Shown: piece after piece, positions 20,551 to 21,784 of the stretch
How the letters are laid out: each line of letters starts with the position of its first letter
Numbering within the stretch: the stretch's first letter is position 1
NCBI RefSeq assembly: GCF_000469385.1
Contig: NZ_KI271335.1
Location: forward strand, 30,134-68,233
Direction: 5' to 3'
Source: Leptotrichia sp. oral taxon 879 str. F0557
GTDB lineage: Bacteria; Fusobacteriota; Fusobacteriia; Fusobacteriales; Leptotrichiaceae
Length of the DNA stretch: 38,100 nt
Notes under the pieces: generated by a model
The model's input: only the letters and a program-made list of their open reading frames with translations
The model's database searches: none
Told to the model about the DNA's origin: nothing
Program-made: the position numbers and the translations under genes

Positions 20551-21135
20551 TTATTTTTTATTTTCAATTACTTCTATAGAGTTTTTAGACCAATTTACAT
20601 TTTTTTCTTTATATAAAATTTTATTATTTATAAATGAAAAAATATGTTTATATTTTATAGAATTATCATATAGGTAAACTTCATCAAATTTTGTAATTAC
20701 CTGTTTTAAATTTTTTAAAGATTCATAATATCTTTTTTCGACTATTTCATCAGCTATATTATGACCGCCTTTTTCTACTCTATTTTTTATTCTTTCCTTT
20801 GCTATTTCAGGATTATTTACACCAACATAGAATAATTGTAATTCGTAACCTAATTCTTTTGCTTTATCGATAGTTTTTAAAATCGTTTTTCCAGTTAGAG
20901 TTGTTTCTTCATTAAACGATTTTCCATGCTGCATGCAGTCATTTCTTAAATTTATTGCTATTTTCGCTGCTTTTATTTGATCAGAATTATTCTTCCAATC
21001 TCCGATTTTTCTAACAATTTCATCTGTATTAATTCTTGTACTGTCTTTTATGTTATCATCTAAATTTCCAGAATTGTATAGAGTTGATTTTCCTGCTCCA
21101 TTTACTCCTGCGAAAATATATAAAACTTTTTTCAT
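20551..21135 (-). CDS. zeta-toxin-family kinase (type II toxin)
   Basis: A 194-aa P-loop protein. Walker A is GVNGAGKST (residues 10-18, Lys16). INTDEIVR carries Asp38, the position of the catalytic acid in zeta kinases. NEETTLTG (residues 75-82) follows, and KNRVEKGGHNIADEIVEKRYYESLKNL is the family's 'RV..GGH...I..RY..SL.NL' signature. Zeta/PezT toxins are known to phosphorylate UDP-GlcNAc and block cell-wall synthesis; relatives of this shorter kind are common chromosomal 'zeta toxin family' genes. The ATG overlaps the stop codon of a 57-aa gene upstream by one base (TAATG), the classical antitoxin-toxin layout. No truncation is seen. Confidence 0.9.
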   Translation of the reverse strand: MKKVLYIFAGVNGAGKSTLYNSGNLDDNIKDSTRINTDEIVRKIGDWKNNSDQIKAAKIAINLRNDCMQHGKSFNEETTLTGKTILKTIDKAKELGYELQLFYVGVNNPEIAKERIKNRVEKGGHNIADEIVEKRYYESLKNLKQVITKFDEVYLYDNSIKYKHIFSFINNKILYKEKNVNWSKNSIEVIENKK

Positions 21136-21308
21136 TAAAATACACCTTTTTTTATTAACTCATCTTGTTTTGTTTCCAAAATTAAATTAAATAGCTTATT
21201 ATAAAATATTTTATCTTCTTCTTTTTCAGATTTTTCCATTAATTCATTAATATCTTTTTGATTTAATGTCAATATGAAATCTTTTAAATTTTCTCTTTTT
21301 AAATCCAT
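21135..21308 (-). CDS. 57-aa candidate antitoxin for the zeta-family toxin
   Basis: This short gene starts MDLKRENLKDFILTLNQKDI, continues with ELMEKSEKEEDKIFYNKLFN and ends LIKKGVF. AGGAGA lies just before the ATG at 21308. The product is an acidic/basic all-helical polypeptide, as expected for a small antitoxin that wraps its toxin. Its stop codon overlaps the toxin start (TAATG), so translation is coupled and the antitoxin is made first. No DNA-binding motif is evident. It is functionally comparable to epsilon antitoxins in position and size but I cannot claim sequence homology. Confidence 0.8.
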   Translation of the reverse strand: MDLKRENLKDFILTLNQKDINELMEKSEKEEDKIFYNKLFNLILETKQDELIKKGVF

Positions 21309-21367
21309 TTTTTCTCCTAATATTTTTCATTATTCTAAATATTTTTTAAATGACAAATAAGAACCTT

Positions 21368-21784
21368 TTATTTCCCTCTATGTTTCTTTTTCTTTTTCTC
21401 CTGTTTCAATAAAAATTTTTTCTGTTTTTCAAGTTCTTTTTCTTGCTTTGTTTTAACTTTCCGTTCCTTTTTATTCACTTCATATTGTAATTTTAAAATT
21501 TCTTCCGATTTTTTCAAAAATTTTTTACTTTGAAGTTCTTTTTTTATTTCTCTTTGTCTACGTTTTGGATTTTTGGCTTTCTCATTAAAATTTGACTTCA
21601 TTTCATTACTAAATCGAAGATTATAAAACTTTTTTAATATAAAATCATAAATTTCATATTCTTTAGGTTCCGAACCAAAAGTTACTTTACAAACTGATAA
21701 ATTATCATTTTCAAAATTTTCAAAAATTCCTACCCAAAAAGGATTTTCAAAAAAAACTGTCAATTTTCCTGAAATCTTTCTCAT
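21368..21784 (-). CDS. yjdF: YjdF-family protein (DUF2992)
   Basis: A 138-aa protein of the YjdF family: KLTVFFENPFWVGIFE at the N-terminus, VCKVTFGSEPKEYEIYDFILKKF in the middle, NPKRRQREIKKELQ, then a strongly basic coiled-coil tail (KKQKKFLLKQEKKKKKHRGK-like). The biochemical function is unknown. In Firmicutes this gene is controlled by the yjdF riboswitch, which binds azaaromatic compounds, suggesting a role in toxin or drug response. Here a structured leader with an obvious anti-Shine-Dalgarno segment precedes it. The ribosome site AAGGAGGC eight bases before the ATG is the sequence that the leader can mask. Confidence 0.9.
   Translation of the reverse strand: MRKISGKLTVFFENPFWVGIFENFENDNLSVCKVTFGSEPKEYEIYDFILKKFYNLRFSNEMKSNFNEKAKNPKRRQREIKKELQSKKFLKKSEEILKLQYEVNKKERKVKTKQEKELEKQKKFLLKQEKKKKKHRGK

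Follow-up and report, generated by a model that had tools for sequence, protein, structure and literature searches.

A short zeta-family kinase gene preceded by a putative 57-residue antitoxin gene with no recognisable epsilon sequence in Leptotrichia, other Fusobacteriota and Bacillota

The closest described counterparts of the gene pair considered here are the omega-epsilon-zeta system of pSM19035 and PezAT (1gvn, 3q8x and 2p5t), with which it shares the zeta kinase fold, the Walker A motif and the positions of the Asp and Glu. In epsilon/zeta the gene for the small inhibitor comes first, and epsilon is without a DNA-binding domain; the same arrangement is found here. The available text of PMC5923241 describes how the antitoxin of known systems covers the ATP site of the kinase, epsilon by the start of its helix 1 and ng_epsilon1 of Neisseria gonorrhoeae by another stretch. 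The gonococcal pair ng_epsilon1/ng_zeta1 (6EPG; available text of PMC5923241) consists of a zeta kinase and a small, epsilon-unrelated antitoxin, and is the precedent for such a combination; the ng_epsilon1 gene is 186 bp according to the available portion of PMC2848598.

Rv0366c-Rv0367c of Mycobacterium tuberculosis, as far as the available text of PMC6362051 goes, includes a short zeta/PezT-like kinase in which GxNGAGKS and the Asp, Glu and His stand where they do in the toxin considered here and the GTXR motif is missing; it is reported to be bacteriostatic and to be countered by its antitoxin, and the pair is placed largely in Corynebacteriales. The residues given there for the mycobacterial short kinase are a GPNGAGKS-type P-loop, Asp36, Glu75, Arg116 and His122, and the authors doubt that UNAG is the substrate of short mycobacterial PezT. 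EzeT and other "solitary" zeta homologues stand outside the epsilon/zeta pattern, their inhibitor not being obvious; the available portions of the reviews (PMC4803016, PMC4826407) mention solitary zeta or long toxin genes for which no antitoxin is known. In EzeT, the same portions indicate, the inhibitor lies within the same chain, whereas the locus described here has a separate small gene. The text of PMC2701414 contains no occurrence of zeta, epsilon or either of two COG numbers.

The window, a stretch of 38,100 nucleotides from Leptotrichia sp. oral taxon 879 str. F0557, carries on its minus strand a gene for a short zeta-family kinase of 194 amino acids (20551..21135), the putative toxin, which matches PF06414 at 46.9 bits against a curated cut-off of 22.3. 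A preliminary description of this DNA had the toxin keeping Walker A, Asp38 and a GGH/RRY-like signature, and all are indeed in place: GVNGAGKST at residues 10-18 (21082..21108, minus strand), Asp38 (21022..21024, minus strand), GGH at residues 123-125 (20761..20769, minus strand) and KRY at residues 134-136. Asp38 aligns in alignment A6 with Asp67 of zeta, whose role is treated in the available text of PMC6362051. Residues invariant in alignment A2 are GVNGAGKS 10-17, Asp38, Glu77, Arg115/Arg119 and His125. Judged from the kept motifs and a low dN/dS, the pair is probably active. The toxin has the residue pattern of the mycobacterial short kinase, a likeness drawn by pattern to the residues in the available text of PMC6362051 and not by alignment. 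Unlike pSM19035 zeta, it is about 90 amino acids shorter and lacks the GTXR UNAG motif, reading ETTLTG where zeta has EGTGR (alignment A6); its motifs thus place it outside the canonical UNAG kinases. It differs also from ng_zeta1, which the available text of its report presents as a rearranged chain that carries an additional OB domain and has its P-loop lysine at 115, whereas the window toxin has that lysine at residue 16 of a single domain. Homologues of short zeta are common on plasmids: among 72,556 plasmid records, 620 are matched by this toxin. A relative from F. hwasookii is 77 percent identical.

An AlphaFold2 model of the toxin (pLDDT 91, from seven sequences) agrees best with zeta 3q8x at Z 15.2 (rmsd 3.3, 176 aligned), with the bacterial polynucleotide kinase 4jt2 at Z 15.2 (rmsd 3.2, 156 aligned) and with AvrRxo1-ORF1 4z8u at Z 14.4 (rmsd 3.0, 181 aligned). 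The match to zeta is thus tied with those to other P-loop kinases, and the fold therefore fixes no substrate. The gonococcal ng_zeta1 is present among the Foldseek matches of the toxin and falls outside the matches listed in a second fold table. A sequence search of the PDB with the toxin profile returned P-loop stretches only, and no solved zeta.

Directly upstream of the toxin gene, and on the same strand, lies an open reading frame of 57 codons with an ATG start (21135..21308), the putative antitoxin gene. Its stop codon TAA (21137..21135) and the toxin ATG (21135..21133) have one base in common, forming a TAATG overlap (21133..21137, minus strand), and an AGGAG resembling a ribosome-binding site stands 5 bases before its own ATG (21314..21318, minus strand). 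The ORF coordinates thus bear out the frame, the one-base overlap and the start signal of the preliminary description. Among family members the distance between small gene and toxin gene ranges from -8 to 19 bases. Against five near relatives from the same genus, omega of the small ORF is 0.07-0.12, and over all 13 computed pairs, some of which differ by very few changes, it runs from 0 to 0.37. The 57-residue ORF is a real coding gene under purifying selection at the amino-acid level. A promoter scan at the pair gave 8 sites where shuffled sequences led one to expect 10.1, hence no excess, and a terminator scan there found none. Immediately upstream of the pair, at 21368-21784 of the window, is a gene for a DUF2992 protein (PF11208, 155 bits).

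The product had been expected to be all-helical, in keeping with an AlphaFold2 model (mean pLDDT 83, five-sequence alignment) that predicts helices at residues 2-14, 17-26 and 30-54. The best-kept columns over 28 members are F35 (23), Y36 (21), L39 (18), L44 (18), Q48 (25) and I52 (24), all of which fall in predicted helix 3 (residues 30-54; 21147..21221, minus strand). Public records do not bear out the claim that the gene is easily missed. The relative on a plasmid of F. hwasookii is annotated there as a CDS for a "hypothetical protein", as is the small gene in 9/9 of the toxin-retrieved Bacillota plasmids that were read. At the place of a 61-residue relative found in eight enterococcal records, two of the records lack any annotation.

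The small protein has no family in Pfam, NCBIfam or PHROGs at a meaningful score. PF08998, the epsilon family, was matched by none of 12 members in Pfam, and a true epsilon matched it at 5.8e-26 in the same library; hhalign of the small protein against epsilon gave a probability of 0.3 percent over 11 columns. On these two tests epsilon homology was rejected, which upholds the earlier remark that the antitoxin has no recognisable epsilon sequence. At 57 residues the protein is also unlike epsilon in size (about 90). DUF2481 was set aside as a family, the Pfam match being weak: it was seen in 3/12 members, with a best E of 0.0079 and a score of 16.7 bits where the cut-off is 27. No ribbon-helix-helix Pfam family occurs in the 57-residue protein or 11 relatives, and Pfam finds no DNA-binding family in the 57-residue protein. 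This sets it apart from the antitoxin of Rv0366c-Rv0367c, which has an N-terminal ribbon-helix-helix in the available text of PMC6362051. A difference from ng_epsilon1 is also predicted: that antitoxin binds as an extended chain in the available text of PMC5923241, whereas three helices are predicted for the 57-residue protein, modelled alone. Foldseek with this model returned 26 matches, none at E <= 0.001, an uninformative outcome for so short a helical protein, and the small-protein profile, run against PDB sequences, yielded chance-level matches only. By sequence, the small protein is a member of a separate, unnamed, epsilon-unrelated family that accompanies short zetas in Fusobacteriota and Bacillota. 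A literature search, chiefly among openly licensed papers, found none naming this family or the fused double zeta described below.

Searching 98 Fusobacteriota genomes with a profile built from 12 small proteins (A1) gave 39 matches at E <= 0.01, of which 31 lie at E <= 1.6e-5; the other eight (E 1.3e-4 to 0.0056), several with stops or in long frames, were left out of the counts. A separate toxin profile found 29 places at E <= 1e-20 in the same genomes, eight weaker matches out of 37 (E 2.3e-9 to 9.7e-4) being likewise left aside. By coordinates, 27 of the 31 confident small-family matches immediately precede a short zeta gene, and such a match stands directly upstream at 27 of the 29 short zeta places; the linked pairs include one with a broken zeta (G053) and one whose zeta runs off the contig (G057). 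Absence of the frame from relatives had been named beforehand as grounds for discarding the proposal, and the frame proved to be conserved. Since A1 was built from genes preceding zetas, including one carried on a Fusobacterium plasmid, the count within the window's own family is partly circular; in a second family (f2), whose genomes contributed nothing to A1, 17/19 are linked. In the four exceptions the small gene is cut by an IS605-type element, beside a zeta remnant with stops (G002), or is followed by a fused D12 methylase/DpnII ORF (G016), lies between an ORF that is HsdM-like by eye and a Pfam-confirmed HsdS (G047), or precedes a weak HipA-like ORF (G065). The two zeta places without a profile match are in G002 and at G052:C2; at the latter an ORF of roughly 60 codons aligns along the small family, without the conserved Gln.

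For 28 selected pairs, the distances among small proteins agree with those among toxins (Mantel r 0.80; 0/10000 permutations). These pairs, like the 27 rows of A5, were hand-picked, one or few per near-identical group; near copies such as L004, L006, L010, L028, L050, L052, L055, L096 and L103-L105 were left out of the distance comparison. Because linked genes are inherited together, this agreement speaks of co-transfer and not of contact. The two genes form a conserved and co-inherited unit, small gene first, as in type II toxin-antitoxin systems.

Decay of the unit is one-sided. At six loci (G016, G053, G047, G065, L017 and L118) the small gene is intact and the toxin is broken or absent: a broken toxin is present in G053, L017 (a Clostridium MAG) and L118 (an E. 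faecalis plasmid), and none at all in G047 and G065. In G016, DNA identity to G010 is 93 percent until 16 bases into the zeta gene, where a restriction-modification gene takes over. Some of the toxin losses may be recent. None of the loci examined combines an intact toxin of this clade with a broken small gene; G002 has lost the integrity of both. Toxin-first decay therefore fits what is predicted for an antidote and not what is predicted for a helper subunit. Two of these loci bear comment for their own sake. In G016 (L042:1474-1692, and from 1704 onward) the fused methylase/DpnII ORF has replaced zeta, one addiction-type module standing in for another, and in G047 (L056:1471-1662) the small-family member sits in a type I restriction system, the genome having no zeta at the threshold used.

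Eight enterococcal plasmid records carry a 61-residue relative of the small protein. In one of them (L019) the genes before it are omega (PF07764) and epsilon (PF08998), and in five other annotated records a peptide-binding protein and an antitoxin are found at the places of omega and epsilon. In seven of the eight the 61-residue gene is followed by a single frame of 486 codons in which a short zeta is fused to a pSM19035-type zeta (L019:2477-3937; also L105, L116, L117, L119, L120 and L121), the second part of which, in L019, reaches E 1.1e-175 against the solved pSM19035 zeta. The frame may give one predicted protein, or it may also be read from an inner ATG; the gene tables of these plasmids list the second half alone, as a zeta CDS. 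In the eighth record (L118) the short zeta is broken by an internal deletion and a frameshift, and the small gene is intact. Where a short zeta is found within omega-epsilon-zeta, its own small gene is present too, beside epsilon.

The pair also moves. In G006 the stretch of DUF2992, pair and gltX is entire and arranged as in the window, and in G009 and G013 the pair adjoins DUF2992 by coordinates. In G015 likeness to the window stops soon after the toxin; in G014 the DUF2992-gltX synteny is kept with 372 bases instead of 888, the pair being on another contig; and in G005 a different gene is at the place of the pair. DUF2992 is found elsewhere, without the pair, in G005, G011 and G014. On Bacillota plasmids the small gene is present at all four toxin-retrieved loci outside the profile (L094-L097), and at the five loci used for the profile. 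Upstream ORFs of six loci on Campylobacter and Proteobacteria plasmids (L020, L024, L098, L099, L100 and L102) gave 0/6 matches to the small family, and a seventh locus of this group (L101) has no annotated small gene before zeta. On E. coli and Zymomonas plasmids, ORFs of about 80 codons before short zetas (L099:1256-1501 and L100:410-646) are alike, are unlike the 57-residue family, and perhaps represent a second small antitoxin family. Before the short zetas of two Campylobacter plasmids lie small ORFs with long stretches that are hydrophobic by eye (L020:2214-2465 and L024:2230-2472). Seven loci on viral contigs include two clear members (L027 and L028), one weak one (L029, E 3.2e-4) and four without; three further scans of viral contigs yielded, in turn, L027 and L028 again, a single fragment, and nothing, and a scan of genome contigs with the toxin gave one locus.

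What the small gene does has more than one conceivable answer. It is unlikely that the pair is a canonical epsilon/zeta-type module with a UNAG kinase, its epsilon having diverged beyond recognition. Such a reading has in its favor the membership of the toxin in PF06414, its model match to zeta 3q8x (Z 15.2) and the three helices predicted for the small protein, epsilon being a three-helix bundle in the available text of PMC5923241. The fold match is nevertheless tied with polynucleotide kinase and AvrRxo1-ORF1, epsilon leaves no signal in Pfam or hhalign, the UNAG motif E-GTGR of zeta reads ETTLTG in the window, and in the enterococcal operons epsilon and the small protein are separate genes, side by side.

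More doubtful still is a role for the small protein as a positive partner of the kinase (a folding helper, subunit or adaptor), not an inhibitor. With its enzyme lost, a helper should decay, yet at the six loci with a broken or absent toxin the small gene has stayed intact; its place as first gene and the parallel with epsilon before zeta also suit an antidote, even if strict linkage and the overlap would fit an obligate subunit as well. It is highly improbable that the small ORF is no more than a leader whose translation couples or dampens that of the kinase, the protein itself having no role. Overlap with the toxin start is what one would look for in a leader, but omega of 0.07-0.12 and conserved positions over 28 members speak for the protein itself, the gap to the toxin varies, and the ORF persists with no zeta downstream.

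Linkage, one-sided decay with the toxin going first, transfer of the two genes together, and the operons with two antitoxins and two toxins all fit an antidote, and the small gene, a putative antitoxin gene, very probably encodes the antidote of this toxin. With considerable confidence we regard the locus as a mobile toxin-antitoxin pair, in which a short zeta kinase would be bound and blocked directly by its cognate, epsilon-unrelated 57-residue antitoxin. Two observations pull the other way: the related short zetas of Campylobacter and Proteobacteria plasmids are without the small family (0/6), and the members in G016, G047 and G065 stand beside other genes with no zeta, where the family might serve another role.

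On the antidote reading, the toxin appears from its fold and motifs to be a short single-domain zeta-family kinase. Its predicted substrate is nucleotide-linked; it probably phosphorylates such a metabolite, which would stop growth, and it would be silenced by direct binding. The antitoxin, encoded first and, to judge by gene order and overlap, translationally coupled, is predicted to comprise three helices without a recognised DNA-binding domain. It would bind the kinase most likely through conserved helix 3, blocking the ATP or substrate site; by analogy with known systems, helix 3 is the natural candidate for covering the ATP site in this family. Were the pair lost, the longer-lived toxin would remain, and the module or its plasmid would be held in place, as expected of the class.

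By a narrower measure of belief, only slightly above even, the 57-61-residue proteins may make up an unnamed antitoxin family of wide distribution, with no relation to epsilon, PezA-Mtb or ng_epsilon1, whose targets are short zetas acting on a non-UNAG substrate; on enterococcal plasmids, splicing of the module into omega-epsilon-zeta would then have produced a toxin with two heads, each requiring its own, unrelated antitoxin. For the branch of short zetas found in Fusobacteriota and Bacillota, the small family supplies a sequence-defined candidate antidote, and the natural fusions with two antitoxins and two toxins offer a built-in test of specificity.
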